From: an uncultured Desulfobacterium sp.
GTDB lineage: Bacteria > Desulfobacterota > DSM-4660 > Desulfatiglandales > Desulfatiglandaceae
DNA length: 44,368 nucleotides
Direction: 5' to 3'
Assembly: GCA_900258555.1 (NCBI GenBank)
Contig: LT984854.1
Coordinates: forward strand, 1,557,681 to 1,602,048
Part shown: one piece after another, positions 17,211 through 42,005 of the stretch
How the letters are laid out: every line of letters starts with the position of its first letter
How positions within the stretch are numbered: position 1 is the stretch's first letter
The notes under the pieces: generated by a model
What the model saw: the letters and a program-made list of their open reading frames with translations, nothing else
Told to the model about the DNA's origin: nothing
Databases searched by the model: none
Translations under genes and position numbers: made by a program

Positions 17211-17425
17211 AATGCGGCAACCTTTGTTTTTTTATGCTCTAGAGATAAATCATTCGTTCGATCCGGCATACCAAAGAAAAAAGAATCGAGTGCACGGAGG
17301 GCGCTGCTCTTACCAGCCTCATTAAGTCCATAGACAATGTGCAGTCCAGGATATTCTGAAGAAAAGTCTAGCACGTTGTCGGTAAAGGGACCGAATGCCC
17401 TCAGATCGAGTTTTTTAATCCTCAT
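17207..17425 (-). pseudogene. YhaN-type AAA ATPase cut to its first 72 codons
   Basis: The 72 residues start MRIKKLDLRAFGPFTDNVLD and contain a Walker A motif GLNEAGKSS, matching the N-terminus of YhaN/SbcC-like ATPases (AAA_27), whose members are usually around 900-1100 residues. All coiled-coil and Walker B parts are missing, so it cannot be a functional ATPase. The start overlaps the end of the YhaO gene by 11 bp, as in normal yhaO-yhaN pairs. The frame ends precisely at the ATGA overlap with the AlbA_2 gene. A deletion that joined the two genes is likely. Confidence 0.8.
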
Positions 17426-18677: not shown

Positions 18678-18714
18678 GTTGTTCCCCTCACTGATGTAAT
18701 CACTTTACCGAATA

Positions 18715-19131
18715 TCACGCATTATAACGGTGTTCGCCTATTTCCATATAATCCAGAAATCGGTGTGTATCGATTCCCTGGAAACGAGCGCAGCGAATGA
18801 CGACATCAGGAAAAAGGCGATGGCGGTTTTTCCCAAAAACTAACACCGCACCAAAAGTGGGGATACCCTTCCCCCCCTGACTGACAATGAGGCCGAGAGT
18901 TTTGCTTATTGAAGGGGTCAATTTCCGGGAAACGGATGCAAAGAGCTCGGAAGCAGCTAGGAAGTCAATATCTTCCGAGTTAATTTCTGTGCAAGGCTGC
19001 TCATCAAACGAAATATTCCGTGCCAGATGGCGAATCGCTTCGATTCCCGTACTATTCCAGGTAATTGTCAGTCTTTTCATAATGATACCAGTGAACAAAT
19101 ATCCATTAAGACATTCAATCAATTCAATCAA
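18715..19131 (-). pseudogene. Internal remnant of a second AlbA_2/RecG-like regulator
   Basis: The 138-codon frame contains IEAIRHLARNISFDEQP and LGLIVSQGGKGIPTFGAVL, followed by FGKNRHRLFPDVVIRCARFQ. These are the segments that follow the AlbA_2 domain in this family. The AlbA_2 domain before it and the ATP-binding part after it are missing. It is not a copy of 15546-17210; the sequences differ strongly. It lies directly upstream of the YhaO gene, same strand. Confidence 0.7.
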
Positions 19132-20097: not shown

Positions 20098-23000
20098 TCA
20101 CCCTAACGTGACACCTCCGTCAAGTTTTTGGACGCGCTGCAGAAATTCCTTCCTGGCCTTTGCCGGCAATTCCTTGAATTTCTCAAGCAACCACTCAACA
20201 CTCAGGGCATCCAACCGCGCCTGCACTTTCCTAACTACAACTGCTGCACGCTTAAGATGCGGAGCTGTCACGACTGGGGGAGGAGTGCTCACTCGATTGT
20301 GGAAACGATTGGCTTCATCTGCCGGCATGTCCAGAATATTTTCAACTTGGGATTCTATCGATTCAATCCATGATGTGCTAGTTTGCTTGCGACGTTTCGA
20401 AATGGCCTGGACAAAACCATCCATTGTGTCTTCAGGTACCCAGGGCGGCTCTTCTTCTCCAAGGGTAGCGGCCCATTCATTTCTAATCTCTTCAGCTAAT
20501 GTCTCGAACTCATCCCAATTCAAGTTATCGTCAGAGAGGCGTGTATAATCTTTCTGGTAGAGCCTGAGGGCACGTCGCATAAGCTGGAGGTCCTCAAGAT
20601 CTCGAGGTAAGCTCTCAAACGCACCAACCAAGGACTCCACCTCCCCGAGTATAGGGTCTATGTCTGTCTCGGTTTGGATCTTGGTTAGCCAGATGCGAGA
20701 TGCACGTTTCATGGTCTCGCTTTCTGCATTCTTAAGTTTTGCTTGGAACCCTGAAAGCTTTGTACGCGTCTCGACAATCTCGGGTATCTGTATGCGTCCC
20801 GCGATACCCTGTAACTTCCTAGAATAGTCGTTGCCGACCTCAACAAGTCCTCGTATTTCCGCAATACGCACAATGCGAAAGGCATTGCCATTTGTGGTCA
20901 GCCAGGAATTCACATCTCGCAGAAGCTGATGGGCTTCTGCTATCGTTTCTGCTTTTCGGATCACCTGAAGTGTGTGCATCTCTAATTCTTGAAACTGCGG
21001 CTCCAGTCCCATTTTTTTGAGGTTTCCTCCTACTAGACGAAGCATTTTGTGTTTGAAGTCACCTACTGATTCAGGGGCATCGTTCCTAGGTGTCTGTTGG
21101 ACGAGCCAGTCCGGAAAAAATACGATGGTGCCCTGGCGAGCCCTCTCGTAGTGAGGTTGGACTTCCGCGATCTGGGAGTCGGTCCAAAGAGGTTCCTCGG
21201 CAGCCATTTTCTCACAGAGCTCTTTGAGCGCCACACCTCCCCACGCCAACTTGCTGACATCACCATATTTCGCTCCTTGCTCTACCTTCGATATAGCTTC
21301 ATCCTGGGCTCTCTCCATTTTTTCCATGGCTTCCGCAGACGCCAACGCCTGCTCGCGTAGATGCACCTCTCGGTACCCCAATGAAGGCGGAACTGGCACG
21401 CGGTTTTTTAGCTCAAATGACCGTTCTAGGCAGCTCTTGCGTGCAAGATGGCTTTCGGCCTGTTCCCATTCGTCTAAGAGCGTTTCCCATTCCGAGGACG
21501 CCTCGCCACGAAGAATAAGGTCCACACCATGAAGAGCTGATAAGTCAATAAACTTGCCTCGGAAAACCCCTTCCTGCACCCATTGGGAAACGGCTAGTTG
21601 CTGCCCGTCGCGCACGGCGACGAGTTTCTCCGCACGTGGCGCAACAAAAACACTTAAGAGAAGCCCCGCTGAAGCAATATTCCCCCCGTACGGAGGACGG
21701 CAAAGTTGACGGATAACATCCGCAACGGGCAATCGCCGTTCATCTGCGGCCAAAGCGTCATCCCATTTTTCCGTGATCGCACGGACGGACGGATACGCAG
21801 GCCGCCTAGAAACATCGCCGTTCTTTGTGAATATTCCCCACGATTCCTTCAAAACCGTTACAGCCCTGTTCTTTGACTTAACCGGCTTTGCAATCGCCCC
21901 ATCGTAATCAAGCTTACCAAGAAACAACTCGATCGTGAGCTCCTGGCAAGTGTCAGCAGCATTCCCTTTTGCCGTACTGAAGCCATCAAAGGGAAAAGGT
22001 ATCGGAGTCTTGTATATTTTCGTGAACAACTCAGTCCCTGCTCGGCTAAGTCGATGCGTCTCCAATTCTTCTTTGAGTCCGGTAAGATAGCGCCTTTGCT
22101 TCATCATGTTTTCGACTTGGTCCCGGATCACTTGCTGCAACTTTTCTTTGTGGGCGCCGATCAAATTGCCGAACTTCACACGGTCCTCTTCACTGAGTGA
22201 TTCCTCAAGTACAGCAAACTCTGCCAAAGCCTGTCCTAATGTGCCATTCTCGTCACACAAGAGTACAATTAGAATTGGCAAAACTGGCACTGCGGATTCC
22301 CGCGCCACGGTCTTCAAAAGCTTCTTGGTGTCCGACACAATAGCTACAGGGTCCCGGCTTTGCTCCACATAGGTATAGATTATCGTGCCCCGGGGATCAT
22401 CTACCGCTAAGGCTCCCGCCCAACGATTGCTGGCAATCATGATCTGCTGAGGGAGATAGTCCAGATTGGATGTTACGGCTTGATAACGCCATTCTCGTGT
22501 TGTGATTCTGTTCTCTTCTGCGAAATCGCAATCTAGATCACTGAGCAGCTCGCACCATTCGGCACTCTTGCTGGCGAACAGCTTTGCCTTTCCAGCTTCG
22601 TCATAGGAGCTCGCAACTCGTTGGCGAACAAAAGAGAGAAATTGGGTGCGGGGAACCGCATCACCAAGAATGTCGAACGCTTTAAAGGCCTCGTCCCATT
22701 CTAGGACGTTGTACTCTTCCTGTAGGAGCCGGATGCCGTCATACGCATCACTGCTTTTCAGACCCGACAGTTCCCCCAACGCATCGATTGCGTCGTCTTT
22801 GCTTGTTGCTTGGAGCCCGAGCTTCGATGCCAAGACAACAGCGCAGAGGAGAAGCTGCAATCTCGAAGACAGACGTGATCCATGCCTTGCAATAACTGAA
22901 GCGTAAGCGTGTGCAATGGCCCCTTGCTGGCCAGTCTCCTCAGAAGTTATGAGTTCCTGTTGAAGCGCATCCGACCACAAGTCGGCTGGCGACAGCGACC

Positions 23001-24396
23001 AATTCCCATCGTCGGGTACTTCGACATTCTCGTAACGGTGAAAAACATCGCCCAACAAGGCAAGCGCAGATCGCTCCTGGAGGTGCTTTCCAGCGGATGC
23101 AAGATAGAAGAGAAACCACGTAGAATACGGCGACAGTGGCCAGCACCCCTTGCGAATTACAGCATGAAACTGATCAGAATCGCCCCAAAGCCTGTGGTTT
23201 CTTGACTGGGGAAACCATCGGGCAAGATTCGCCATGGTGACTTCAGAATCGCCTTGGGCTCTTCCACCGTCAAACCATCCATCTATTATGTTATCTTCAC
23301 GCTTCTCAATAAGGCTGGCTATCAACGTCTCTAAGTTGATGGACAGGTAAACCCTATTGGCCGATTGGTAACGAGTCACGTACCTCAGAATCTCATTCTT
23401 GTGTTCCGGGGCTACTCGCTGCACGTATGCGTTCAGCTCAAACTGGATAAAGCCCAAGAAGCATGCGCTATTTGCGTTCGCCTGTATTGCCTCAAACAAG
23501 TCCTGCAAAACCCCACTGCCCGCGATCTGGCTGCGAACCGTTGCGAACTCGGTATACTTCCCAAATTCATCAAATAGTACTAGAAGGCATCGATAGGGCT
23601 TTCCTGTTCCACAAAACTCGCGAACCGTGACGTCAATGACATCCCGAACGGATTCTCCACCAAGCACCCTAATGGGCATTCCCCGCTCGGCGAAGAAATT
23701 GTGTACCTTTGTGTACGCTTGTTCATCATGTTGCTCCAACCCAGTGAGAAGATCATGGGCGCTGACGGCTTCACACGTTGTCACAAGTTCATTGATGATT
23801 TCCTCATTCGACATTCGGATTAGGCTCGCTGCCTGACCAAATCTGGGCCGGAGATCATCCAAGGGCTTTGGGTCAAGTCCGTCGACTTTGAGGGTACGCA
23901 CAATCTGCTTTGTGATCTCGGCGGTAAGGTCAAAACTCTGCATTCCGTTCAGAGTGAGCGCTAGACAGGGTTGTCCTGCTTCGTGCAACAATGCCCGGAT
24001 GTCGCCTCCTATTCCGGCATCTGCGGTGTCGATGGCGGAAAGGACATTCTGGGCGATCTCTCCATCGGGCGCACCGACTAGACTCGCGAGCGTTAGCCCC
24101 AAATGCGATTTGCCGGTGCCATATCCGGCTATAGCCAGCGTAAACGGCTGATCCTCCAAGCCATAGCATCTTCGAACTACGGCACGGGCCAGGCTTGCCG
24201 TATCCATGAGGCGATGTCCGTGTCCAATTCCTACATCACCCTGCTGCACTCCGTGGTACTTCGGCCCATGGAAAACGAATGCTTGGCTGGCAGCTTTGGA
24301 TTTTTCTTCATCCGCCCCAAACCAACTGATGCTGACCGCTCCATGGAACAGGCGATCCCCTCGGAAACGAACGATGTCATTGAGCCGTTGAGGCAT
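20098..24396 (-). CDS. Large P-loop ATPase of the block B operon (1432 aa)
   Basis: The Walker A motif GYGTGKS is near residues 91-97 and a Walker B-like LLVLFDEFGKYTEF is near residues 265-280. After this come an ARYQ/NRVYLSINLETLI segment and a long helical body with many charged stretches. The DEFGK form after Walker B parallels DELGK in the 1169-residue ATPase at 37235-40744; both have a P-loop in the first 100 residues and the same order of elements, so I regard them as distant homologues. Each also follows a DUF4007-type gene. I chose the ATG at 24396 since AAAGGAGG precedes it; a GTG five codons upstream is an alternative. It is the last gene of the operon. No nuclease or methyltransferase motif is visible. 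Likely role: a nucleotide-driven sensor or remodelling subunit. Confidence 0.8.
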   Translation of the reverse strand: MPQRLNDIVRFRGDRLFHGAVSISWFGADEEKSKAASQAFVFHGPKYHGVQQGDVGIGHGHRLMDTASLARAVVRRCYGLEDQPFTLAIAGYGTGKSHLGLTLASLVGAPDGEIAQNVLSAIDTADAGIGGDIRALLHEAGQPCLALTLNGMQSFDLTAEITKQIVRTLKVDGLDPKPLDDLRPRFGQAASLIRMSNEEIINELVTTCEAVSAHDLLTGLEQHDEQAYTKVHNFFAERGMPIRVLGGESVRDVIDVTVREFCGTGKPYRCLLVLFDEFGKYTEFATVRSQIAGSGVLQDLFEAIQANANSACFLGFIQFELNAYVQRVAPEHKNEILRYVTRYQSANRVYLSINLETLIASLIEKREDNIIDGWFDGGRAQGDSEVTMANLARWFPQSRNHRLWGDSDQFHAVIRKGCWPLSPYSTWFLFYLASAGKHLQERSALALLGDVFHRYENVEVPDDGNWSLSPADLWSDALQQELITSEETGQQGAIAHAYASVIARHGSRLSSRLQLLLCAVVLASKLGLQATSKDDAIDALGELSGLKSSDAYDGIRLLQEEYNVLEWDEAFKAFDILGDAVPRTQFLSFVRQRVASSYDEAGKAKLFASKSAEWCELLSDLDCDFAEENRITTREWRYQAVTSNLDYLPQQIMIASNRWAGALAVDDPRGTIIYTYVEQSRDPVAIVSDTKKLLKTVARESAVPVLPILIVLLCDENGTLGQALAEFAVLEESLSEEDRVKFGNLIGAHKEKLQQVIRDQVENMMKQRRYLTGLKEELETHRLSRAGTELFTKIYKTPIPFPFDGFSTAKGNAADTCQELTIELFLGKLDYDGAIAKPVKSKNRAVTVLKESWGIFTKNGDVSRRPAYPSVRAITEKWDDALAADERRLPVADVIRQLCRPPYGGNIASAGLLLSVFVAPRAEKLVAVRDGQQLAVSQWVQEGVFRGKFIDLSALHGVDLILRGEASSEWETLLDEWEQAESHLARKSCLERSFELKNRVPVPPSLGYREVHLREQALASAEAMEKMERAQDEAISKVEQGAKYGDVSKLAWGGVALKELCEKMAAEEPLWTDSQIAEVQPHYERARQGTIVFFPDWLVQQTPRNDAPESVGDFKHKMLRLVGGNLKKMGLEPQFQELEMHTLQVIRKAETIAEAHQLLRDVNSWLTTNGNAFRIVRIAEIRGLVEVGNDYSRKLQGIAGRIQIPEIVETRTKLSGFQAKLKNAESETMKRASRIWLTKIQTETDIDPILGEVESLVGAFESLPRDLEDLQLMRRALRLYQKDYTRLSDDNLNWDEFETLAEEIRNEWAATLGEEEPPWVPEDTMDGFVQAISKRRKQTSTSWIESIESQVENILDMPADEANRFHNRVSTPPPVVTAPHLKRAAVVVRKVQARLDALSVEWLLEKFKELPAKARKEFLQRVQKLDGGVTLG

Positions 24397-24407
24397 GGGG
24401 CCTCCTT

Positions 24408-25256
24408 TCACAGCATATCGTCATAGATGTGTCTCCAGGTCTCATCGGCATCTGCTTTCGGAATGAGAAGCCAGGGTTCCATATGTCTGTCAACCTCAAT
24501 CAATCCCTTGCGCTCAACAAGTTCTAGCGCCCTCTGCAGGCTAGAGATATCCCACCCGGGAATTGTGCGCCAACCCGCTGTAGCGTCGAGGTCAGTGATC
24601 GGTACCTGGCGCCGTTTGGGGAAATGATCCCTCATCAACTGCAGCATCCAAGCGCCATAACCAAGACCAAGCTCGTCTGCGATAGGTGCTGGCCGTCGCA
24701 CAACCGTACCACCAATTTCAGACAGCACACCACACATTTTGAAGGCCGCATCATCCTCGTATGTTCCAATCAGAGGGCCTATGAGCCCACTTCTCTCGAC
24801 GCCATAAATGACATTCAAATAGGTCTCAAGCTTTGCCCTAGCAAAGTTCATACCGAGGGCCTGCATCCCGGCAAAGAAAATGTGGTACCATACGTCTGCT
24901 CCCACAGTAGGACTGCATAGGTTGAAGTGTGCTATCCACTGGCTGACCCTGGTCTTCAAATAAGGGTCTTCAAGAAGGACGATTCGACCTAAAGGCGTAA
25001 GCTCGGGCTTCTTCGTTGAAGAACGTTCCTGTCCTGCCAATCGTATCAGGCCCATCCCTCTGCAATAGTCCAAGATAGCTGGCACTTTTCCGCTCGATGT
25101 ACCCGTCGGAATTCCCGTAGCAGCAGCAATAGCCCTATAGTCTCCCTTCTCGCCGGAGGCCGCATATCGCAACATGGCGTTGATGTACTGGCGCTCAGGT
25201 TTGAATGTCTTGTGGAAGTTCCGCGGCAGGCGACTATGCTGGGTTTCGTCAGGCAT
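24408..25256 (-). CDS. Divergent DUF4007-like protein (block B)
   Basis: The 282-residue protein reads NFHKTFKPERQYINAMLRYA near its start, a helix-turn-helix-like YRAIAAATGIPTGTSSGKV, then LTPLGRIVLLEDPYL followed by SQWIAHFNLCSP. The last two segments parallel LGEDGWDPFLENPSSLWLLH and WNLFKP of the DUF4007 protein at 41053-41973, so I call it DUF4007-like from this pattern. Winged-helix-like segments near the C-terminus (LQRALELVERKGLIEVDRH) suggest DNA binding. The ATG at 25256 overlaps the HerA-like gene end by 8 bp; a TTG at 25289 is possible but has no ribosome site. The ATPase gene starts 12 bp after its stop. Confidence 0.7.
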   Translation of the reverse strand: MPDETQHSRLPRNFHKTFKPERQYINAMLRYAASGEKGDYRAIAAATGIPTGTSSGKVPAILDYCRGMGLIRLAGQERSSTKKPELTPLGRIVLLEDPYLKTRVSQWIAHFNLCSPTVGADVWYHIFFAGMQALGMNFARAKLETYLNVIYGVERSGLIGPLIGTYEDDAAFKMCGVLSEIGGTVVRRPAPIADELGLGYGAWMLQLMRDHFPKRRQVPITDLDATAGWRTIPGWDISSLQRALELVERKGLIEVDRHMEPWLLIPKADADETWRHIYDDML

Positions 25257-28200
25257 GGGCCGTCCGTTTTGCAAGGGAGGTGATGCCAATTCGGAATGCT
25301 TTGACTTCCAGCTTGCCGGTTGCCTCGTTCAAGCTAGGCCCCAGCGAGTAGCACTCAGCCTTCTTCAAACTAGCGAGTCTCTTCAGCCAGACATCGGGTT
25401 TCTCACCGGTGCTCACCGAGGCAATTTCCGCGTATGTACGCATTTCAGTATCGGCCGGGCGGAAAAACAGCTTGTGTGCGGCATTGAAAAGCCTATCTTT
25501 TTCGTCTTTTTCAAGATTGCTCATGATCTGCGTCGCGAGGATGAGGGAAAATCCGAACTTGCGTCCTTCGCGAAGGAGCTGAGCTAGAGGGCTCTCCTCA
25601 CGATGGTCCAGGTTCTGAACTTCGTCTAGTACGACTACTCGGGGGGAGTGTTGTGTTCCGCGACTGCGATAGAACCAGTAGAGATCGATCAAACTGAACT
25701 CGGTCACAAGCCTTGCCGCGTCCTTCATGAATCCCGCCAACTGAACGATATGACATCGATGTGTGGTATCAGTGAAAAGGCGTTCCCAACTCTCGGGATC
25801 CTCATCCCCAAAAGGGTTCTGGTCGATAAAAGGAAGAATCTTGCTCGCTACGCTGCTGGCCGATTGACCTACCGTGCCTTTTTGTTCTACGAGCTCCTCC
25901 AATCTGGGAATCAGGTCACCTAGGGTCATAGCTGACGCAGCGTTTTGCTCCAGACCCGCCTTGACTGCTTGATACAGTGCGGACTTCTGTTGATCTCCGA
26001 AACGATATACCTCAGAAAATACACCGCTGACCCTCTGTGCGGTGGTCGATGCAGATTCCGGCAGCAACTCCCCGGCTATGGGCTCAGCCTGCTTGCGAAA
26101 GGGGTTTATCGAAAGCGGCTGTTTGCGAATGATATGCTGGACAGGGTGCAGCCGGCCTCTAAACTCGTCTTCCAATTGGTTATCGAAAAATCCTTTGGTG
26201 TAGTCGACAATCAGAGAGTTCTGACCGTTTCGACCGAGTTCGAAGAGGAGGCATTGAATCGTATAGGTCTTTCCCATTCCTGAAGACCCGAAAATTAAAA
26301 TATGTCGGTTGTTCAGCTCGCTGTGGCCGAACTCCCAGTACACTTTGCGTGATCCAGGCACCGTCACACCAAGGAGTATCCGCTCAGGGACATTTATGGT
26401 ATCAGTCGGCCACTCGCCCTCGGAGCCGGCTTCAGGAACACCCGACAGCTCACTACCTAATTCAGAGGGAGTCTGTCCTTTAAGTTTCTTTAGCACAAAG
26501 CCTCCGTCTTCATCCGCACCATTCCCACTGTCATCAGGCGCGCCGGTATCGAGAGGATGAGCTGCTGCCTCGAATAAGGCTGAGGTATTAGTCCAAGGTA
26601 GTGAGAACCGTTCATTCTTTTCGCACAGCAATCGCACGAACTCACTCCCACTCGATACCACTCCAATGCCGACTTCCTGCCCCTCAACGGAATACGGCCA
26701 GATGTCCACCTGGGAAATTCCAGATGCGTTCTGATCCGTCCAGAAGGTCAGTGCCGCGGCGCGCCACTCGACGTCGAACTCACCCTCGGCAAGACGTTCC
26801 AATGCAGAAAGAATGCGCCCCTGGTCACGTCCCATGATCTCGGATTTGCTGGAAATGAGGCGGTGAAGCTGCAGCCACCAGTACCGCTGATCCAGACGCT
26901 CATCTTCGACACGCATCTCGTCCGAATAAGGCATGAACACGGAGACAAGATGACGAAGGCCGTTCTCCAGTTGCTCCCTGGCCTTGTCCAGATGCACGTC
27001 GGACATCTTCGCAAGCTTGCATTCTATCAGTCGCATATCCAGGTGCAGCCGTCCAGTCTCCCCAATCTTAGCCGTTAGCCAAAGAAGGTCGGGTCTCGTA
27101 TCCGTTTCCGCGGAATCGAACCAATGACGAAATGCGTCCAGCGACACCAAATGATCGCACAGAATGTCCTTACCCGCCTTCAGGAGCTTTCGAGTCAACG
27201 AATAAGCCATGAAGTCCCGCACGTACTGGCCGATACCAGTGGCGCGGACCAGAGAGAGCCCGGAGAGGTGGTGAGACTCTGCCAAGACGCATTCAGCAAC
27301 ATTCCGAAATGTATCCGGCGACCAACCACTGTACACCTCGCCAATCGACGTCGTGAGCTTGTGAAGGACATCGGACAACCGAAACTGCTCGGTAGAGATC
27401 GTATAGTTGGACTCGCCGTGTGTGCCGACTCCCGAGCCGAATCCGATGATCTCCCTTGCTTCTTGAGTATCGCGCGACTTCTCCGCGACTAGGCGCTCGT
27501 CGACGTTGGGGTCAATGCACACGACCCACTCTGCCCGTTGATGCAGGGCATCGATGACCCCCTGCCATGGCGCGTAATCCCCATAACCTAAAACCACGTA
27601 GTGCGTATTCTGGGGCGTTCCCTTGTTTTTAAGGCGGGCCATGACATCCGCATGATGGGTGGTTATCCGGAATTGCCGATTGCTGATCACACGAGCCCTC
27701 AGCAAACGTCTCCCTGGATCCCGAAATGAGCAGAACGACTTCTCAAGAATCGGGAACTTTAATGTGCGGATGGTGACGTCGTAGGGTCCGACGAGTTCGA
27801 AATCGTTGCCCTGCGATCCGGCTCGGATAAAGCCATTGAGTATGGCCACATCGACGTCCAAGCTCTTCATCACGAGCTCAACGAACTGCCGATAGTGATT
27901 CTCGGAAGAAACAATACAGTGCGCAACGGAGAGCTGTGCCCTCCTGTAGTGAGCTAACGAGCCCTGCGTCTCTGCTGCTTCCCAACGCTCTTTCCACTGG
28001 GCAATCCAACGCGCGACGCTGCTGTCGTCGCTAGACTCCGTGAACACGGTAACTGACATGGCATATGGTTTGGCACTATCCGCGCGACCGCGGCAAACAT
28101 CCACCAGGAACTCGTCTACCGCCGCAATGACCGGTTGAATGTCCTGGTTCTGATAAACCGCAATTCCGAGCCCATCCTCTGCATGCGGGTGAAGTTTACG

Positions 28201-30507
28201 GTAGTCGCGCAAAACGTTTGACATAAGGGTTGATTCCCGACTGCTTCGGAACAGTTCTGCGTCGGAAATATCCTCCTCCTCGAACGCGTCATAGCGCAAC
28301 AGCAACCGTGTGGTCAGGGGAGCCTCGGTCTCCCCGACGGTCCCGATGCGATGAATGAGCCCGTTTCCTCGGATGTCTGTGTCCAGAATCCGATCGCGAT
28401 CCTTGAGTAAGCCGGACAGTGGCGTTTGGATTGCGGCAAGGTCTACGTAGCCTTGCCAGAAACTTTCGCGGAAAGACCGCACTCCGGGGGAGCGCAGCTC
28501 GCGGCCTGCGATGGTCGAGAAAGCTGTTAACAGATAAACAATGTGCGCCTGGAGCATCTCCAAAAGTGCAGGATGCAGCATGGTGACTGCAGATGATGGC
28601 TCGAAGGCATCCCAAACCCACCGATCCGATTCAAAAGCACGCCGCCGCGCAATAATCAGGAAGGCTCTGAAGAGCATCGACGCCACGGGACTGTCGGCAC
28701 AGGCAGGATCGAGCAGATAAGCATCAGCGGCCTTCTCATACGCCTTCCGCAGCTCATCCCAAGCATCCAGCAGAGCAGCATGGATACCATTGGTTTTGGC
28801 CAATTGCATGAACCGATCGTATTCGAACGCTAGTTTTTGAACCGCCGGCAGCAAGGGATCCTTTGCGTCGAGTTCTCGTGCCTTCAGTAGGTTGTTTACG
28901 CCATCTCCTTCGTCGTGGATGCATTGGAGGAGCACTCTTCGTGTCTCCTCATCGTCCTTAGCGAGAATCAGCTCTTCATAGTAAGGTACATGAAACACGG
29001 GGAGACAGTATCCATCAGCACGGGAGATGCTGTCTGCAGCCCACTGAACTAATTCGTCAGCAACACGGTAAGGATGAATCTCCGGCAGACGCCACGCAAA
29101 CTGCCGCGTTACAGGCTCATCCCATCCATGGCCCTCCAGAACTACCGTGAACTGGAGAAAAGGTTCTGACGTGCGCGCAGACTGACATTCCACCTCTCGA
29201 CGGAACAGCTCGGATTTCACGGAGACGCTCTGGCCCTCAGAGCACATCCGGGTCGTGTCGATCCACTTCTCGAGATAGCGATCGACGCCGCCCAGCAGCT
29301 TGGCCAGATAAACGACGGCCCGTTGAGCTCGTTCTTCGGCTGATTCGCCTTCACAGTCGTGTTTAAACAGGCGGGACTCAAACCGAATGCCCGCTAGGGC
29401 CTCATGGGCAAATACACCCCGGCCATTCGACACACGCTTGAACTCACCAAGAGTGGTCCAGAGCGCACTCAAGGCGACCTCGATCGGACCGCCACTCAGC
29501 TTGGAGACGGTTTCCTTTTTGGGCTTCGGTTCTCTCGGGGCCCTAAATCCAAGGATGCGGTCCCGGATCGTCACAAAATCGCAGCTCAGCAACTTATTGC
29601 GAGTCAGAGCATCGCCCTTCCCGATATACTCCCTCAGTGCATCCACAAACCCCTGGTCTGAAGCAAAGGGGCTTCTCTCCGAAGGATCAAAGACCTCACC
29701 AAGGGGGTTGTTTTCGACAAATGCGTCAATTGCCTTGAGAGCCTTAGTGCGGTTGCGGTCCTCCATGAACGCATCGTAGGCGAAGAAGGCGATGGCATAG
29801 TCTAGGTAGGTGCCGAAGGCCCGGGGGGTTGAGAACTTGAAGGACTCGAACTCTGGGAGTCCAAATCTGCCAAGGCTGGATAGCAGCACCCTCTCTGCAT
29901 CACGTCCGTCCTGAGCCGCGCTGAGATCAAGATTCTGCAAGAGAGAGCTGACCTGGAGTACGTCCGCAAGGCCTCGTTCCACGAGAGGTTGCAGAACCCA
30001 GTCGAAGTGCTGAATCGTATCCTCCTCGTACCCGACACGTGCATCCAAGGCCGCGCGAACCCACCGGCTGAAGCTGCCAGCTAGCTCGCGTTCCCAAACT
30101 GTTTGCAAATCGCAGTGGTGAAAATCAGCCATGCTTGCCGCGTCGGTAACCCGATCGACGCCAATTAGTAGAACGAGGGCGGTTTTTCCTTCATCTGAGA
30201 TGATGTTGCGGTATCCGGTCAGGTTCTCTCTATCATCGCACCATCCCTTCTCGGATAGCTCCCGTTGGAGGTCTCGAATCTCTGGCCTGACAGACGTCTG
30301 CCAATCTTGCACGAGGGGGGTAGCCACCTTAATGATGAGTTGAACGGCATCCGGACGCCTGGTGCAATATGACGTCATACCGTCTGCCACGTCCTTCACT
30401 ACCTGCGGCGGCAGCGACGGCATCATAAAGAGCATTTTGCCGTTACCTTGCTGCTGCTCTGCCTGGCGGCAAACGTAGTCGAGGGCGCTCTGTGCGAAGA
30501 ACTTCAT
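25249..30507 (-). CDS. 1752-residue protein with C-terminal HerA/FtsK-like ATPase
   Basis: Only the C-terminal quarter is recognisable. It has Walker A FGSSGMGKTY near residue 1404, preceded by NNRHILI, then a Walker B VVVLDEVQNLDH near residues 1622-1634, and LREGRKFGFSLILATQIMSN, the pattern of HerA/VirB4-type hexameric ATPases. The first 1400 or so residues are alpha-rich with no motif I recognise. The size and layout recall DptH of phosphorothioate-dependent restriction and other very large HerA-fused defence proteins, but this is a resemblance only. The ATG overlaps the upstream gene by ATGA, and the end overlaps the DUF4007-like gene by 8 bp, so translation is coupled. Likely role: DNA translocation or restriction complex. 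Confidence 0.75.
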   Translation of the reverse strand: MKFFAQSALDYVCRQAEQQQGNGKMLFMMPSLPPQVVKDVADGMTSYCTRRPDAVQLIIKVATPLVQDWQTSVRPEIRDLQRELSEKGWCDDRENLTGYRNIISDEGKTALVLLIGVDRVTDAASMADFHHCDLQTVWERELAGSFSRWVRAALDARVGYEEDTIQHFDWVLQPLVERGLADVLQVSSLLQNLDLSAAQDGRDAERVLLSSLGRFGLPEFESFKFSTPRAFGTYLDYAIAFFAYDAFMEDRNRTKALKAIDAFVENNPLGEVFDPSERSPFASDQGFVDALREYIGKGDALTRNKLLSCDFVTIRDRILGFRAPREPKPKKETVSKLSGGPIEVALSALWTTLGEFKRVSNGRGVFAHEALAGIRFESRLFKHDCEGESAEERAQRAVVYLAKLLGGVDRYLEKWIDTTRMCSEGQSVSVKSELFRREVECQSARTSEPFLQFTVVLEGHGWDEPVTRQFAWRLPEIHPYRVADELVQWAADSISRADGYCLPVFHVPYYEELILAKDDEETRRVLLQCIHDEGDGVNNLLKARELDAKDPLLPAVQKLAFEYDRFMQLAKTNGIHAALLDAWDELRKAYEKAADAYLLDPACADSPVASMLFRAFLIIARRRAFESDRWVWDAFEPSSAVTMLHPALLEMLQAHIVYLLTAFSTIAGRELRSPGVRSFRESFWQGYVDLAAIQTPLSGLLKDRDRILDTDIRGNGLIHRIGTVGETEAPLTTRLLLRYDAFEEEDISDAELFRSSRESTLMSNVLRDYRKLHPHAEDGLGIAVYQNQDIQPVIAAVDEFLVDVCRGRADSAKPYAMSVTVFTESSDDSSVARWIAQWKERWEAAETQGSLAHYRRAQLSVAHCIVSSENHYRQFVELVMKSLDVDVAILNGFIRAGSQGNDFELVGPYDVTIRTLKFPILEKSFCSFRDPGRRLLRARVISNRQFRITTHHADVMARLKNKGTPQNTHYVVLGYGDYAPWQGVIDALHQRAEWVVCIDPNVDERLVAEKSRDTQEAREIIGFGSGVGTHGESNYTISTEQFRLSDVLHKLTTSIGEVYSGWSPDTFRNVAECVLAESHHLSGLSLVRATGIGQYVRDFMAYSLTRKLLKAGKDILCDHLVSLDAFRHWFDSAETDTRPDLLWLTAKIGETGRLHLDMRLIECKLAKMSDVHLDKAREQLENGLRHLVSVFMPYSDEMRVEDERLDQRYWWLQLHRLISSKSEIMGRDQGRILSALERLAEGEFDVEWRAAALTFWTDQNASGISQVDIWPYSVEGQEVGIGVVSSGSEFVRLLCEKNERFSLPWTNTSALFEAAAHPLDTGAPDDSGNGADEDGGFVLKKLKGQTPSELGSELSGVPEAGSEGEWPTDTINVPERILLGVTVPGSRKVYWEFGHSELNNRHILIFGSSGMGKTYTIQCLLFELGRNGQNSLIVDYTKGFFDNQLEDEFRGRLHPVQHIIRKQPLSINPFRKQAEPIAGELLPESASTTAQRVSGVFSEVYRFGDQQKSALYQAVKAGLEQNAASAMTLGDLIPRLEELVEQKGTVGQSASSVASKILPFIDQNPFGDEDPESWERLFTDTTHRCHIVQLAGFMKDAARLVTEFSLIDLYWFYRSRGTQHSPRVVVLDEVQNLDHREESPLAQLLREGRKFGFSLILATQIMSNLEKDEKDRLFNAAHKLFFRPADTEMRTYAEIASVSTGEKPDVWLKRLASLKKAECYSLGPSLNEATGKLEVKAFRIGITSLAKRTAHA

Positions 30508-32147
30508 TCGGAAACCTCCCCGCCATCAAAGGGGTTCAGGACAAGAGAGCAGGAATCCGAAAGGCGGATCAGTACGCCGGATGCCTCAAGCATTTCGGTC
30601 AGCCATTCGTCCGTTTTGCCCCCAAGGGTTGTCAGGCGCGATGTTCCTGACCATTCACAAGATGAAGCAAATCCTTCATCGTCGACCGTGATTCCGTAGT
30701 GAGCCAGCAAAAGCTTTTTGAAAGACTCGTAAGTAACACGCTCTCCAGGCCGCAGCACGGATAATACAAGGAACCTGAGAAGTCTGTCGTTGAATACGAA
30801 GCGGGTGCCGGCCCCCCGTTTAGGGACGATAAGACCTATTCGCTTTGCCACCGTCAAGAATAGTTTGTGCCCATAGCGTTTGTCCATATCGTTAATGACA
30901 TTCTTTAATTCTTTGGGGCTCAAGGTATTCAAGCCCTTGTGTAGATCGGGATGCCTTACAGCATCGAAGATCAGTCGCTGAACCGCATTCACATTGCGCC
31001 GCGATATCTGCTTAACCACGGTCTGATCGCCTGCAGGGTCGGAAATCGCCCACACATAACCTAAGGACCCTATTCCGTCCGTTCTCTGAGCACTACGTTG
31101 CGCATAGCGTGCACTCTGGGCGCAAAGGCTTCTGAGCACCTGCATCGCGCAGGCAATCTCCAGCATCTCCAAACGCTCGATGGGGTCGATGACAGCTTCG
31201 CAAAGGCGCAGAAGTTCGATTGCGAAGAGTAGGCCTTCAGGCCAGCTCTCCGCAGGACACCAGCCGCAGGACGCGAAGCGCGGCTTATCGGTGCCGGCCT
31301 GGAAATCTGTCTGCTTCGCGGTCTCGGAATCGACCCCAGTATCCAGAAAATCAGCTAGTCTGCCTACTGTCTCAGGGCATGAATCAAGGACTGATTCAAG
31401 AGCGCGCTCGAGCGCTGCAAGTAACTCAGACGGTGAGGACTCCCTCTGCGTGAGGCTCAAGCTCGCAGCATCGGCCCATGATTGGATATCTGCCTGATCC
31501 TGTCTCAGCGCGTTACAGACCTGAAGGTACAGGAGTGCTCCGCTACGAGCAAGAAAGACCTGTTGCGTGTGAGAGAAGTACTCAAGAGCACTTTCCCAGT
31601 TCTCAACTCCTTTGGCTCTTGCCGCAGTCTCTCTCCAGATGCTTTCATCGGCAATAAGTTGTCTGGAGATGGGAAGAAAACTCGCAGCGCACCAAGTGCG
31701 CTGTCCCCCTACGCTTTGGAAGCCGAGGAATAGATTCTCCAAAGTCTTGAGTACCTCGTCCTCATCAAGCGATCCTGGGTTCAATTTCTCAGGAGAACGC
31801 ATGTCACGAATCAGGGCCCGATAGTGCTGCCTATGGCTTTCATGCCGGGTATCTAGTTTCGAAGCCCCAAGAAATGCGAACAACTTGAGATTGAGTCTTA
31901 CCTTTGGCGAATACTCCAGGCCACATCCAGTGGGCCATGAATGCAATCGATTCATCTCCGGCAAGATTGTTGAGAAAGGACTTTCCTCGCCGGCTATTCG
32001 CTTCTTTGACACTGCAACCAGAAGGAACTCAAGGAGTAGTTCAGGAACTGTTTGGTCAACGAATAGGCGCCTACCAAATAACCGTATCGCCGGATTCCGA
32101 TCGAGAGTGTTTTGCCGAAGTCCAATGAGAGGAAACTGTTCAGGCAT
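30504..32147 (-). CDS. Unrecognised 547-residue protein of the block B operon
   Basis: I do not recognise a family. The sequence is mostly helical, with a cysteine pair CGWC near residue 300, several further cysteines, and a C-terminal region (GLIVPKRGAGTRFVFNDRLL, then VTYESFKKLLLAHYGI) compatible with winged-helix folds. No catalytic motif is visible. It overlaps the kinase gene by 8 bp upstream and the HerA-like gene by 4 bp downstream (ATGA), so it is surely expressed with them. It may be a scaffold or adaptor between the kinase/ATPase and the HerA-like protein, by position only. Confidence 0.75.
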   Translation of the reverse strand: MPEQFPLIGLRQNTLDRNPAIRLFGRRLFVDQTVPELLLEFLLVAVSKKRIAGEESPFSTILPEMNRLHSWPTGCGLEYSPKVRLNLKLFAFLGASKLDTRHESHRQHYRALIRDMRSPEKLNPGSLDEDEVLKTLENLFLGFQSVGGQRTWCAASFLPISRQLIADESIWRETAARAKGVENWESALEYFSHTQQVFLARSGALLYLQVCNALRQDQADIQSWADAASLSLTQRESSPSELLAALERALESVLDSCPETVGRLADFLDTGVDSETAKQTDFQAGTDKPRFASCGWCPAESWPEGLLFAIELLRLCEAVIDPIERLEMLEIACAMQVLRSLCAQSARYAQRSAQRTDGIGSLGYVWAISDPAGDQTVVKQISRRNVNAVQRLIFDAVRHPDLHKGLNTLSPKELKNVINDMDKRYGHKLFLTVAKRIGLIVPKRGAGTRFVFNDRLLRFLVLSVLRPGERVTYESFKKLLLAHYGITVDDEGFASSCEWSGTSRLTTLGGKTDEWLTEMLEASGVLIRLSDSCSLVLNPFDGGEVSE

Positions 32148-35100
32148 CGGTCACCTCTAGGCGTCCATTGCGGACAGCAAAGATCTGTCGGCGAAACGTG
32201 TTGTTGGTTCGTAAGCGCACAAGCATAATGTCGTCCATTTTCCGTACCGTTGCATGATGAATCAACTGGCCTTTGAAACGTTCGAGACGGTCAATATACG
32301 AAGCCTGCAGAGCTTTTCCGATCTCACCACGATTCCGGAGCATCACATAGTCCAAGAAGGGAAGAGACAGAGAAAGATTCAGACCACCACTGTTTGGGGA
32401 GCCTTCCAAAAAAAGATCGCGCCGGATGCCACCCGCTGGACTATCTGCCGTGCGCAGGACGATGCGGAAATCATCTTCAGGGTAGCGTGCAAGCACCACC
32501 TGTGCACTCTGCCTCACGTCATGAGAGTGCCTGCTCAGTGTCACGAAGAGATATCGGTCGGACGATGCACCTTCAGGAAGCCTGACGCCCGTGAAGTGCT
32601 CCTGAAGTACGTGCATGATGCGTTTGTGCAGCGAGTTGGACTCCTGAAGGCTCAGTATCTCCCCGTCCAGGCTCTGCCACCGCACGAAGTCCAGAATCAT
32701 GTTTGACCTAAGAAAAGCACGAAGGAATTCGTTGCCCTCGTCTGCACCGAAATCATGCAGAAAGAAGACCGCCCTTCGGATTTGGTCGCGCGCGTCGGAG
32801 CTGGAAATCGTGTCGTCGATCAGCAGGCCTGCACCGTATCGCCGCAAGGTTTCGAAGTCATTCGGGGCCGTTGCAGACTTCAATTGGAACGAGTGCCCCC
32901 GGCTTCGAAGCCAGAGGTAACGCTCCCAGGTGGGACAGGGCTGCAAGCCGAATCCCTGCCCCCGTACCGCCTGAACGCCTCGTAGCTGTGCTGCAAAGGG
33001 ATCCGGGGTGCTACCGTTATCTCCAAAGAAACGGTTGAAAAACATGAACTCCGCCATCAAAGGTGGCTTGGCCCTCTCCGCCATTTTCTTGATGTCAGCG
33101 TATTCCAAGCCCGAGGTAACCATGTAGGCCATATGAGCACATAACTGGCGAAGAGTGAGCCTGATGCCATACTCATACATGCGCCGGTATGCAAGAAACA
33201 GCCGGTCGCGTATACGCGGAAGGTTGGCTTGCATCAAACTTACGTTCCGAAAGATGGGACACTTCTCCCCGCATGACGCAGAATGGCAAGGTGCCCATCT
33301 CTCCTCGGCGAGCATCCGCTCGAAGATCTGACTGGCGATTTTCAGGTTGTCCATCATGGCCACATTGACCAACACAAATTCAGCACCTTGGAACGTTACG
33401 GAGGCAGGTTTAAGGCTGTTCATTGAGCCGAGGAGATTGCTCTCTACTCCTACCCAGTTTCCGCCCATCGCCTTCTCTTGAGCTTTGAAGGTGTCTAGCA
33501 ACGTGCCCGTGTTGGAAATGAGTAGGAACCGGGAGCCCTCGGCATCTAGCATTTCGTGCATCAGGTCCGCGCGCTCGGAAGGAGACCACTCGCTGAAGTC
33601 TTTCACAAGACTGACGGACCCGAGAATTTCGCGACGCTGCAGGTTATCCGTAAGCGTTTGATTTGCCGGCAGATTCTCCAGCCGTCTGAAGATATCAACG
33701 GCGATTGTCGATTTGCCGTCCCCCGCATGCCCAGTGAGGACGACATGTTTCTTCTCCTCTCCTGTCAGAATGCCGTAAATGACATCGGTAACAGGATGAG
33801 GCACATGGATATGGCCAAAGAATGGGTTTCGCACCTGGGATTCGGCCAGGGTGTTCTCGTTAGCCGCACTGCGGCTATGCAGTGAGTTGAGGTAAGTCAC
33901 GAATGGGTTCGGGGCCGCATTGGCAGGTATAGAAGCTACGGTCAGCCGCTCGGGTTGCGCGGGCTTTGTTTCTTCGGCAACAGCGAGGGTCGCCTCGGTT
34001 TGCAACCCGGCTTCCGGACCTTCAATCGGCTCAGGTTGGACCAAGGCTGAATGCAGTGCCGACTTCATCTCTTGGGCAGAGGGATATCGATAGCCGGCGT
34101 CAGGCGAACACCCCTTATGTAGCCATTCCGCGATCGCAACAGGTTTAGCGTCGTCACCCGAGGTCTCTGCCCCAGGCCTGCATCCTAGGAGCCACTCATG
34201 AAGACTAATTGACAAGGCGTATAGATCGCCATCCACGCTGTACTTTCGGTCCTTTCCTAGCCGTAGGTCGGGCGCCACGTACCCTTCCGTCCCTTCATAC
34301 GTGCCTATATGGGACTCCGACGCCGACCCGAAGTCTATCAGCACTAGGCGGCGAGCATGCCCCAAAAGAATGTTCTCAGGCTTGATGTCATTGTGAAGGA
34401 TCGGGTTCGGCACGCCGTCTTCGGCATTCAGGTGAAGAGACGATATGGCGTCGAGGAGTTGCTCAGCTCCCCGCACGAAGCTGTTGATATCGGGACGAAC
34501 ACCATCGTCAATCTCTTCTCGAAGGCTCCTCTCAGAAGCCCAGTCAAATGCGATATAGTAGCGACCATCGCTCCATTGGCTATAGCTGTCCACCCGAACT
34601 AAGCTAGGATGATGGGCCGCTGCGGCGTAGCTCTGCTCGTCAACAATCCGCGGCAGTGGCACATCGCGATTGAAGAGCTTCAGAGCCACATTCTTTCCAC
34701 GGACTCCGGCCGCACGGTAGACCTGGGACTCTGCGCCTGATGTCACGAAATATTGGATGCTGTATAGACCCGATTGTGCTCCTTCGGGCAAGCGAGGATT
34801 GGTTTCGATACCGAAAGGCAGCGTCAAATGGCCTGTGCACTCATCTAAGGCTGCAAGAACTTTGTTGGCATCGGCAATCCGATCGGAAGGGTTCTGGCGA
34901 ACCAAGGCACAGACAAGATCAACCACACAATCCGAAACGCCTTCGACCTGCCGCAGCTTTTGTAGATGCTCCTCCGGTAGTCGCCCATTGGAGCGTTCGA
35001 GGTCGGTGGAACAGCCAAAAGGACACTGACCAACAAGCATTTCATAGAGAATTACGCCGAGACTGAACAAATCGGTCGTTGCTTCTGGAACGGTACCTCT

Positions 35101-36246
35101 GACATAGATTTCCGGGGCGATGTACGGTGAACGTTTCAGCTTGGATGCGTCAGGGATCACCGTTACCCGGTTATCTTCAAGCTGAAAGGAGAGATCGAAA
35201 TTCATCAGTTTGGGCGTGTCGTTCACCATGAGAATATTGTCCGGCGACAGAGCCCGGTGGACAATGCATTGGGAGTGCGCCGCCTCAAGTCCACGAGCGA
35301 GACCTGCAGCAATGGCCAAAGCCTTCCCTGAATCTAATGGACCTGATCTGTCTAGGCAGTCCCTTAGCGTTCCTGTCTCCGACCAATCACTTCCTTCAAC
35401 GAGGTAGCTGTTCTCGTTAGGGATATCCCACACCTTCAAGATATTGGAGTGGTCCCCGATCTTCTCAACCGCATTTAGCGTCGCGGTAGCTTTCTCCCTG
35501 GCGTGTTGATCTCCCGATGTGAGAAAGAAAATTCGCAAGCGGCTGAGTCTCCGGTGCCGGATGTCCGTCCTTCGCGCTACCACCTCGGCTCGGTCCTCGT
35601 ATTGGTAGAGCCTTTCGACGATTTCGTACCCTGGGAATACGAAGTCACGCGGAGGACCAACGGTGTTTAGCTTCTGTATGTATTCCGCGAATGCCTGACA
35701 CTGCAAGTCTGAGAGTTTCTCTTCCTTCGCTTCTCGTTGCCACTTCAGGTACTGCAGGAATCGGTCAATGCTTTCTAAGGTTGGATTGTTTGCCGTAGTC
35801 TTGGGAATAGCACAACCGATAACTTCGGCATCGGAGTTCGTAAGAACGACGACCGATTCAAAGTATACCGGCGGAAAACTCGGGAATTTCCGATCGTAGA
35901 GGCCCCGCAAAAGCTTTGCCTTGAAATTGTTTGCTTTGTGTGGATCAGGCTTGAAAAACGATCGGTTTTGCAACCAGCAGTTCGGCCTAACCTCGATTCG
36001 CCCACTCCAATGCTTCAGTTCCACTACGTAGACCCCGAATCGCGAGACAACGACAAGGTCTGTCTCGAAGTAACGGTTCGATTGCTTATCGTATAATTCA
36101 AGATTTCTCAGGGTTGCTCCGAGCCTGTGCGCTTCGACATGATGCGCGATTGCATCAAGTGCTTCGTCTTCGTGAGCAAAAAGGGAATAATTAGATCTCT
36201 CTTCGCGAATTTGATTGTCTGGTATCTTATCTACAATTTTGCGCAA
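32140..36246 (-). CDS. NERD - pseudokinase - kinase - P-loop ATPase fusion (1368 aa)
   Basis: Domains in order: a NERD nuclease-like domain (residues about 20-140, with D63 and the ELK pair E76/K78 of a PD-(D/E)xK-like core); a first protein kinase fold (about 205-415) whose catalytic loop reads HRALSPDN (330-337) in place of HRDLKPEN and whose DFG reads NFD (349-351), so it is a predicted pseudokinase; a second kinase (about 495-695) with VALK (K523), HNDIKPEN (618-625), DFG (638-640) and an APD in place of APE, predicted active; and a P-loop ATPase, GHAGDGKST (839-847). Three cysteines at 987, 992 and 996 may bind zinc. Start is a TTG, chosen because GGGAGG lies 9 bases before it and no ATG is nearby. 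It is the first gene of the operon. Confidence 0.85.
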   Translation of the reverse strand: MRKIVDKIPDNQIREERSNYSLFAHEDEALDAIAHHVEAHRLGATLRNLELYDKQSNRYFETDLVVVSRFGVYVVELKHWSGRIEVRPNCWLQNRSFFKPDPHKANNFKAKLLRGLYDRKFPSFPPVYFESVVVLTNSDAEVIGCAIPKTTANNPTLESIDRFLQYLKWQREAKEEKLSDLQCQAFAEYIQKLNTVGPPRDFVFPGYEIVERLYQYEDRAEVVARRTDIRHRRLSRLRIFFLTSGDQHAREKATATLNAVEKIGDHSNILKVWDIPNENSYLVEGSDWSETGTLRDCLDRSGPLDSGKALAIAAGLARGLEAAHSQCIVHRALSPDNILMVNDTPKLMNFDLSFQLEDNRVTVIPDASKLKRSPYIAPEIYVRGTVPEATTDLFSLGVILYEMLVGQCPFGCSTDLERSNGRLPEEHLQKLRQVEGVSDCVVDLVCALVRQNPSDRIADANKVLAALDECTGHLTLPFGIETNPRLPEGAQSGLYSIQYFVTSGAESQVYRAAGVRGKNVALKLFNRDVPLPRIVDEQSYAAAAHHPSLVRVDSYSQWSDGRYYIAFDWASERSLREEIDDGVRPDINSFVRGAEQLLDAISSLHLNAEDGVPNPILHNDIKPENILLGHARRLVLIDFGSASESHIGTYEGTEGYVAPDLRLGKDRKYSVDGDLYALSISLHEWLLGCRPGAETSGDDAKPVAIAEWLHKGCSPDAGYRYPSAQEMKSALHSALVQPEPIEGPEAGLQTEATLAVAEETKPAQPERLTVASIPANAAPNPFVTYLNSLHSRSAANENTLAESQVRNPFFGHIHVPHPVTDVIYGILTGEEKKHVVLTGHAGDGKSTIAVDIFRRLENLPANQTLTDNLQRREILGSVSLVKDFSEWSPSERADLMHEMLDAEGSRFLLISNTGTLLDTFKAQEKAMGGNWVGVESNLLGSMNSLKPASVTFQGAEFVLVNVAMMDNLKIASQIFERMLAEERWAPCHSASCGEKCPIFRNVSLMQANLPRIRDRLFLAYRRMYEYGIRLTLRQLCAHMAYMVTSGLEYADIKKMAERAKPPLMAEFMFFNRFFGDNGSTPDPFAAQLRGVQAVRGQGFGLQPCPTWERYLWLRSRGHSFQLKSATAPNDFETLRRYGAGLLIDDTISSSDARDQIRRAVFFLHDFGADEGNEFLRAFLRSNMILDFVRWQSLDGEILSLQESNSLHKRIMHVLQEHFTGVRLPEGASSDRYLFVTLSRHSHDVRQSAQVVLARYPEDDFRIVLRTADSPAGGIRRDLFLEGSPNSGGLNLSLSLPFLDYVMLRNRGEIGKALQASYIDRLERFKGQLIHHATVRKMDDIMLVRLRTNNTFRRQIFAVRNGRLEVTDA

Positions 36247-36444
36247 TTCCGAGAGCCTCCCAATTAATAGCTACTTCTCCTGTTCAATCCTAAAGTGGAT
36301 GTTTAATCTCCTTGCGATTACAAACAAGCATTGTCCCTCAGGTATATAACCACATTTTTAATCGACCGTGCTACAACATTGGCAATCCTACATTGTGTCC
36401 ATCCGTCCGAAGCCAATTCGTATCGTGAAATTTGCATCCTCACG
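36247..36444. other. Gap between blocks A and B
   Basis: No gene is supported in these 198 bp. The block B ribosome site GGGAGG is at 36256-36261 on the minus strand. No clear -35/-10 pair is visible, so whether block B has its own promoter is open. No strong terminator for block A is seen either. Confidence 0.4.
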
Positions 36445-37242
36445 TCATAAGTTGCAGACAAAACAGAAATCCTGAGTTTCGTCATCAAGAGCAAAGTCGA
36501 AAACCTCAATGAGAGGCCTGTTTGGGTGATTCTTCTTTTTCAGTTTCATGATCTGTTTGTGGTCTGTAAGTATCTTATCTTTCCTCTCAATCAGTTCAGT
36601 CAACGATTCCTCTTGGTTCCAGTAATATCTCCTGCCATCAGAATGTTCCTGTTCATATTTGACGGCCTCTTCAAAGAGGTCACGGTGGGTCTCGTACAGC
36701 CTTACCCACTCAACTTTTCGCTGAAAGAAGCAGAAAAAACAGCCAGACCTCGAACGCCAACTATAATACCTAGGCGTGCCGATTCCGCTTTCTTCGATAA
36801 TCCTGAATATGTCCTTTTTTACAAGGCCATCCCTCATAAAAGGGAATACCGGCTTAATGTTAGGTTTTGTCGAGATATAACCAACTCTATCTTCGTCCGC
36901 CCTTATAGCAATATAGCTGACAGTCTCATCATCACCGACAAATTTCTCCAGCGGTTCGATCTTTAGCTTCTTTGTGCACCATCTTGACCGGCGATTTGGC
37001 AGGAATCCATCGAATATATCCAACCAATGGTCAAATCCCCTTTGAGCTTCAAGCCGATTGATTTCTTTACCGAGAAGGATTTCTAGCTTATCAATATATT
37101 CATATGTCTCGGGAAGCTCTTTATGTGTATCGCAGAAAAAATACTCGATGTCTGGAATCTCATTTTTCAGATACAATGCAAGAGCAGTGCTATCTTTTCC
37201 GCCCGAAAGACCGAGTATGTGCCGGAACTTCTTTTCAGACAA
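36445..37242 (-). CDS. DndC-like PAPS-reductase-family protein (265 aa)
   Basis: The PP-loop SGGKDST at residues 13-19 identifies the adenylate-forming ATP-pyrophosphatase fold of PAPS reductase, DndC and ThiI-type enzymes. Cysteines in RWCTKK, GCFFCFF and the C-terminal FCFVC could bind an iron-sulfur cluster or carry sulfur. In DndC/SspD this chemistry puts sulfur into the DNA backbone, so a modification role is plausible; assimilatory sulfate reduction is unlikely given the neighbours. Start is a TTG with a perfect AAGGAG at 7 bases, and it overlaps the ATPase end by 8 bp. No cysteine desulfurase, DndD or DndE homologue is in the window, so sulfur would come from a host IscS-type enzyme. 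Confidence 0.85.
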   Translation of the reverse strand: MSEKKFRHILGLSGGKDSTALALYLKNEIPDIEYFFCDTHKELPETYEYIDKLEILLGKEINRLEAQRGFDHWLDIFDGFLPNRRSRWCTKKLKIEPLEKFVGDDETVSYIAIRADEDRVGYISTKPNIKPVFPFMRDGLVKKDIFRIIEESGIGTPRYYSWRSRSGCFFCFFQRKVEWVRLYETHRDLFEEAVKYEQEHSDGRRYYWNQEESLTELIERKDKILTDHKQIMKLKKKNHPNRPLIEVFDFALDDETQDFCFVCNL

Positions 37243-41973: not shown

Positions 41974-42005
41974 CAATTCTCCTTTCATTTGTATAAGCTA
42001 TTTTA

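Follow-up and report, generated by a model that had tools for sequence, protein, structure and literature searches.

We analyzed a 44,368-nucleotide stretch of the genome of an uncultured Desulfobacterium sp. (contig LT984854.1, positions 1,557,681 to 1,602,048; the window), in which an initial annotation had marked five overlapping minus-strand genes as a seemingly undescribed defence operon, one that it could not match to BREX, Dnd/Dpt, Ssp, Pbe or MADS. Judged by its sequence, the locus is a divergent SspFGH-type restriction module, a rare variant of a known system, to which are joined two further genes, sspB2 and sspC2, encoding a second SspB-fold protein and a second SspC-like ATPase. The explanation that we favor, and consider rather probable, is a phosphorothioate (PT)-based Ssp-type restriction-modification system having a five-gene restriction arm, in which SspB2 and SspC2 would form a DNA-scanning pair reserved for restriction.

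Gene content of the locus

The five genes, sspF, sspG, sspH, sspB2 and sspC2, overlap by 8, 4 and 8 bp as annotated, and only the last gap required correction, from 12 to 11 bp. The domain assignments (NERD, two kinase-like domains, HerA and DUF4007) also held. The genes can be matched to a known system, and the locus extends beyond the five. SspF, SspG and SspH match the PADLOC profiles of those names, B2 and C2 lead to SspB and SspC, and complete sspD, sspC and sspB genes had been overlooked directly upstream on the same strand. These PADLOC matches and the adjacent SspBCD rule out an independent system unrelated to Ssp. All eight reading frames are open and the catalytic motifs of SspF and SspH are intact. 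Scans for promoters and terminators gave counts no higher than expected by chance.

The modification arm (all coordinates are window positions, and all of these genes lie on the minus strand) begins with sspB, which encodes a DUF4007 protein (41053–41988; PADLOC SspB, 2.1e-116; PF13182, 1e-95; solved SspB structure 6juf, 3.4e-57). It is followed by sspC, encoding an Orc/Cdc6-type AAA+ ATPase (37235–40744; PADLOC SspC, E = 0, 1304 bits), which overlaps by 8 bp with sspD, the gene for a PAPS-reductase-like sulfurtransferase (36445–37242; PADLOC SspD, 1.5e-110). The window operon contains no sspA/IscS gene; elsewhere the genome has four class-V aminotransferase genes. In several relatives sspA lies between sspD and sspF, and in one Desulfobacteraceae locus (L017, about 900–1200) an apparent remnant of the sspA 3′ end occupies this position, as if sspA had been lost.

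The restriction arm begins with sspF (32140–36246), which has a TTG start and encodes a 1368-residue fusion of NERD, pseudokinase, kinase and SspF P-loop core found with the Pfam NERD and Pkinase models and PADLOC SspF (6e-26 at residues 780–1078). The NERD nuclease domain (residues 40–136; 35839–36129; PF08378, 1.6e-15) retains its aspartate and ELK motif. The pseudokinase, K1 (residues 207–470; 34837–35628), has HRA, HRN or a similar sequence in place of HRD and NFD in place of DFG, in nearly all rows of the alignment of relatives of the same architecture. The kinase, K2 (residues 491–760; 33967–34776), retains the ALK lysine, HND and DFG, and the core (residues 780–1368; 32143–33909) contains the Walker A sequence GHAGDGKS. 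The 547-residue SspG (30504–32147; PADLOC SspG, 2.8e-19) has a DndG-like fold: its AlphaFold model (pLDDT 85.5) aligned with the solved DndG structure 7exx at Z 17.1 in VIA-align, the next row scoring 3.5, and the DndG match in Foldseek was weak (E 0.049). SspH (25249–30507; 1752 residues) matches PADLOC DndH over its HerA part (2.2e-59) and SspH over residues 973–1260 (3.4e-23). It carries a PD-(D/E)XK motif consisting of RPDL and a downstream ECK (residues 1138–1164; 27016–27096) and a HerA/FtsK translocase domain (residues 1373–1716; 25360–26391; PF01935, 3e-11) with Walker A GSSGMGKT and Walker B VVVLDE. In the alignment of 27 SspH proteins, PDL or PDI together with ECK is present in all 27. 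SspF, SspG and SspH are very divergent from canonical SspFGH, with scores of 78, 71 and 22 bits, respectively.

The operon ends with sspB2 (24408–25256, ATG at 25256), encoding a putative DNA-binding protein of 282 residues, and sspC2 (20098–24396, ATG at 24396), encoding a second Orc/Cdc6-type AAA+ ATPase of 1432 residues. An alternative GTG start for sspC2 at 24411 would turn the gap between them into a 4-bp overlap. SspB2 is a DUF4007 protein by PF13182 (1.3e-7, above the family cut-off) with a conserved signature of its own, and its AlphaFold model (pLDDT 92.2) aligns with SspB 6juf at Z 20.5 and 16% identity. SspC2, a distant SspC homologue (PADLOC SspC, 5.8e-9), forms its own clade in the tree and has the Walker A sequence GYGTGKS and the Walker B sequence LLVLFDEFG.

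Association of SspB2-SspC2 with the restriction genes

A scan for SspG across 84,980 species gave 29 loci (L009–L037), which, having been retrieved through SspG, are one clade by construction. The hosts include Desulfobacteraceae, Atribacteria, Bathyarchaeota, Verrucomicrobia, Cloacimonadota, Spirochaetes, Acidobacteria, Armatimonadetes, Anaerolinea and others; many of the loci come from metagenome bins, the organism labels of which may be wrong. Every locus on a sufficiently long contig has the order B-C-D-(sspA)-F-G-H-B2-C2 on one strand, and wherever the contig permits at least sspD precedes sspF. B2 and C2 follow sspH in all 24 loci that reach that far; three further genomes, from the same phylum as the window, show this too, giving 27. 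When 395 genomes of that phylum were searched with a C2 profile four were positive, all with the complete set. As expected for horizontally moved defence genes, the set is rare and scattered. Conservation of the gene set in other genomes thus proved real: about 30 genomes carry the whole set, with identities of 33–88% for the five proteins, and hence the arrangement is not due to chance. One genome (G369) has both this F-G-H-B2-C2 type (contig C18) and a canonical SspG (2.4e-135; contig C11, 18261–19790).

The distances between proteins place B2 and C2 on the restriction side. Among the 16 loci having all eight genes, the distance matrices of the SspF core, SspG, SspH, B2 and C2 correlate at r 0.83–0.93 (permutation p 0.002), and those of SspB, SspC and SspD correlate among themselves at r 0.70–0.86. 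Between the groups, B2 and C2 correlate with B, C and D at only –0.01 to 0.22, and F, G and H do so at 0.04 to 0.36, with several values nominally significant yet weak. As B2-C2 correlates with F-G-H and not with B-C-D, the grouping of the five genes is supported: they make up a single defence cassette, conserved and co-evolving, that includes kinase, nuclease and translocase components, and to this extent the initial annotation was right. The F-G-H operons of eight canonical plasmid loci (L040, L049–L055) contained no B2, C2, sulfur-binding domain (SBD) or NERD-kinase parts, and no second sspD was found in any locus of the window-type clade examined.

A similar pair is found beside unrelated effectors. 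Two BREX-4-like plasmid loci, from Thermomicrobium roseum (L038) and Pseudanabaena galeata (L041), encode SspB-C-D, a second DUF4007 protein, a C2-like ATPase, PglZ and BrxL. The C2 profile gives the two C2-like ATPases 132 and 150 bits, whereas the C profile does not match them, and in a quick tree they fall on the C2 side of a fully supported split. The P. galeata plasmid and that of Pseudanabaena sp. ABRG5-3 share sspB-C-D (84% DNA identity) and flanks of about 90–95% identity; between these the restriction segment is swapped, B2-C2-PglZ-BrxL in the former versus a canonical SspFGH-DUF262-kinase segment in the latter (L049). This exchange indicates that the effector and the second pair move together. 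A Treponema plasmid (L039, 18985–29153) combines an SspB-C pair with a further set of effectors, having genes for DUF4007, an SspC-like ATPase, a cysteine desulfurase, a DEAD/DEAH helicase and a phospholipase-D-family protein; F-G-H is absent from this stretch.

Mosaic structure and the N-terminus of SspF

The window appears, from comparison of its sequence with those of its relatives, to have had F-G-H exchanged inside a B-C-D/B2-C2 frame. Its B, C and D proteins are 71–79% identical to those of two Desulfobacteraceae loci (L017 and L018) and at most 55% identical to those of any other locus, and for B2 and C2 the identity to the same two loci is 83–88%. The window F, G and H proteins are only 46–49% identical to those of L017 and L018 versus 77–80% to those of a locus labelled Atribacteria (L009). 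DNA similarity to L017 covers 20761–25362, reaching just within the 3′ end of sspH, and resumes at 36451, whereas similarity to L009 extends up to 36188. The spacer between sspD and sspF (36246–36445), at the exchange junction, is similar to none of the three. The G+C content rises from 42–46% in B-C-D to 52–55% in the five genes, but L017 and L018 have a similar step, which is thus uninformative on the exchange. The swap means that B2-C2 can pair with quite different F-G-H proteins.

The upstream junction is also the place of a missing domain. An N-terminal SBD of about 145 residues is present on 22 of the 26 F proteins having a complete start. Pfam does not see it on single proteins; it was detected by a profile search against the PDB, which matched 8h0l (SBDHga1) at 5e-36. 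In ScoMcrA the sulfur pocket is formed by H116, R117 and P165, and R117K is tolerated (PMC6224610). Mapping by motif shows no variation at the equivalents of H116, R117 (as lysine), P165, L169 and W175 among the aligned rows covering these positions. According to Rakesh et al. (PMC10853773), a wHTH precedes NERD in DndF, and the ScoMcrA SBD corresponds to a wHTH that those authors identified; the wHTH of DndF is probably the SBD seen here on SspF.

The window SspF lacks the SBD, which each of the other eight complete F proteins of the NERD-kinase type carries, and the F proteins of three loci (L027, L036 and L037) have neither the SBD nor the kinases. The gap between sspD and the window sspF is only about 200 bp, and sspF has its own start with a Shine-Dalgarno-like GGGAGG. 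A search for an SBD elsewhere in the host genome gave no match, a weak negative given that the search had no positive control. With the SBD lost from the window SspF, self-recognition here must depend on other components, unless it is impaired. In the NERD module ELKHW is invariant in 10 of 10 NERD-bearing rows. No row has lost the lysine or HxD of K2, and DFG is intact in the window and in most of the rows, with changes in three.

Other genes surround the locus. A tRNA-SeC is directly followed by a P4-like tyrosine integrase with an Arm-DNA-binding domain (13162–14700), which raises the possibility that the region on the right of the integrase is an integrated island. The attachment repeat of tRNA-SeC had no second copy, either in the window (24 bases, at most three mismatches) or genome-wide (17 bases, at most one mismatch). 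At 15546–19131 are a Schlafen/AlbA_2 protein with weak matches to models associated with prokaryotic Argonautes, a calcineurin-like (SbcD-like) nuclease and a 138-residue protein with a marginal Argonaute match (0.0018). The minus strand also carries, immediately upstream of sspB, an ADP-ribosylglycohydrolase gene (42203–43135; PF03747, 7.4e-72), and L018 has a weak ADP-ribosylglycohydrolase-like match likewise upstream of sspB.

Proposed mechanism and comparison with known systems

In the pathway we propose, SspB, SspC and SspD, together with a cysteine desulfurase encoded elsewhere, would place PT on a short motif of the host DNA. SspB2 and SspC2 would recognize target sites, load and scan the DNA, passing unprotected DNA to the F-G-H engine, in which SspG would bind DNA and SspH would translocate it (HerA) and cut it (PD-(D/E)XK), with SspF as a nucleotide-dependent regulator. 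SspE is triggered by PT, whereas SspFGH is not. The SBD on most relatives' SspF would read PT and most likely gate cutting, by a block or a trigger, the two being indistinguishable at the sequence level. The NERD, pseudokinase and kinase domains would most simply provide an extra regulated effector, for example backup DNA cleavage or phosphorylation, and the whole would presumably act against phages. Vibrio SspFGH attacks DNA that lacks PT and harms hosts without PT (PMC8092258), and hence the F-G-H engine would be expected to cut unmarked DNA. Rakesh et al. (PMC10853773) proposed the NERD and kinase parts of DndF as an additional effector.

Several points weigh against this explanation. The role given to B2-C2 is drawn from position, co-evolution and fold. 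The branches joining C2 to the BREX-4-like ATPases are long, in a tree made quickly and subject to the warning of long-branch joining, and the second DUF4007 protein of T. roseum has no clear preference for B2 (28–32 versus 30 bits). Moreover, the window itself has exchanged F-G-H relative to B2-C2, and thus their link is not absolute.

Alternatively, B2-C2 could be a second modification specificity that steers the single SspD to another motif, giving a host with two PT motifs. The SspB fold of B2 and the homology to SspC of C2, whose Walker A motif is intact, fit this, and a lone sspD could be shared, but we think it improbable: B2-C2 co-varies with F-G-H (0.83–0.93) rather than with B, C and D (–0.01 to 0.22), in the Pseudanabaena pair B-C-D is retained and the second DUF4007 protein and ATPase accompany PglZ-BrxL, and none of these loci has a second sspD. 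The pair might instead sense infection and switch on F-G-H rather than scan for targets, since proteins of the SspB fold and AAA+ proteins can act as switches and the SspF kinase would presumably need a trigger. This too seems unlikely; a switch for the kinase in particular is contradicted by the equal presence of B2-C2 where SspF has no kinase or NERD (for example in L018, L026 and L027).

An ordinary SspBCD-SspFGH system lying beside unrelated SspB- and SspC-like genes was already disfavored and is very improbable. The PADLOC matches of F, G and H and the adjacent B-C-D fit it, but B2 and C2 are present in 27 of 27 related loci extending past sspH and co-evolve with F-G-H, which is itself very distant from its canonical counterparts. 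It is possible, if doubtful, that the window copy is a decaying mosaic, partly inactive, with the SBD of SspF removed by recombination. The window protein is alone among complete NERD-kinase F proteins in lacking that domain, and breakpoints lie near both ends of F-G-H; against decay are the eight open reading frames, the intact motifs of SspF and SspH, and the start and GGGAGG of sspF. Such decay would be compatible with the explanation we favor, which concerns the family.

Returning to the scanning-pair explanation, we regard it as an even call whether SspB2-SspC2 is an exchangeable recognition and loading pair reserved for restriction and common to the unrelated effectors F-G-H and PglZ-BrxL. 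If so, some PT systems would use separate DNA readers, one writing PT and one choosing cuts, with the SBD of SspF as a third check. How SspFGH and DndFGH distinguish PT-marked from unmarked DNA has been discussed without an answer (PMC8092258). The present clade offers two candidate discriminators, the dedicated SspB2-SspC2 pair and the SBD on SspF, and contains natural variants with and without each of the terminal modules of SspF. A further suggestion from this clade is that related scanning pairs can be joined to effectors of either kind, SspFGH-type or BREX-4-like.

Parts of the locus are not new. SspFGH, the NERD-kinase-kinase DndF and DUF4007 in type-4 BREX have been published (PMC8092258, PMC10853773 and PMC12839542), including the fusion of NERD, inactive kinase and active kinase to DndF (PMC10853773). 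The F-G-H-B2-C2 set and the SBD on SspF were not found in the open-access literature searched, which took in no preprints, subscription articles or supplementary tables. The accessible text of Rakesh et al. (PMC10853773) contains no B2-C2 and does not name the F domain as an SBD.

PglW of type-2 BREX also has NERD followed by an inactive and an active kinase, but the C-terminal half of the window protein is SspF, and the PglW match (176.6 bits versus a curated cut-off of 990) excludes type-2 BREX. MADS was rejected likewise, the MAD6 kinase match being 329.8 bits versus a cut-off of 460, with the same SspF half. The DndFGH system, including the form of DndF with NERD and two kinases (Rakesh et al. 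2024, PMC10853773), shares the SspF order of wHTH, NERD, inactive kinase, active kinase and P-loop core, as well as the DndG fold of SspG, and the HerA part of the window SspH is closest to DndH. It differs in that the modification arm of the window is SspBCD rather than DndBCDE and that SspF and SspG match Ssp profiles. Among the matches listed neither SspF nor SspG has a Dnd match, SspH matches DndH over its HerA part only, and no DndB, DndD or DndE was found among the window proteins scanned.

The DUF4007 protein, SspC-like ATPase and PAPS reductase of type-4 BREX are all present in the window, and the BREX-4-like loci L038 and L041 share with it SspB-C-D, a second DUF4007 protein and a C2-like ATPase. 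Their effectors are PglZ and BrxL, which had no match among the window proteins scanned, whereas the window has F-G-H. With SspABCD-SspFGH (Wang et al. 2021, PMC8092258) the window shares SspB-C-D co-encoded beside SspF, SspG and SspH, the latter in an overlapping operon, as well as the Walker A motif of SspF and the HerA/FtsK-like end of SspH. Unlike canonical loci, in which the restriction module is F-G-H alone, the window adds B2-C2 and the NERD-kinase parts, and its clade carries the SBD on most F proteins and NERD-pseudokinase-kinase on some.

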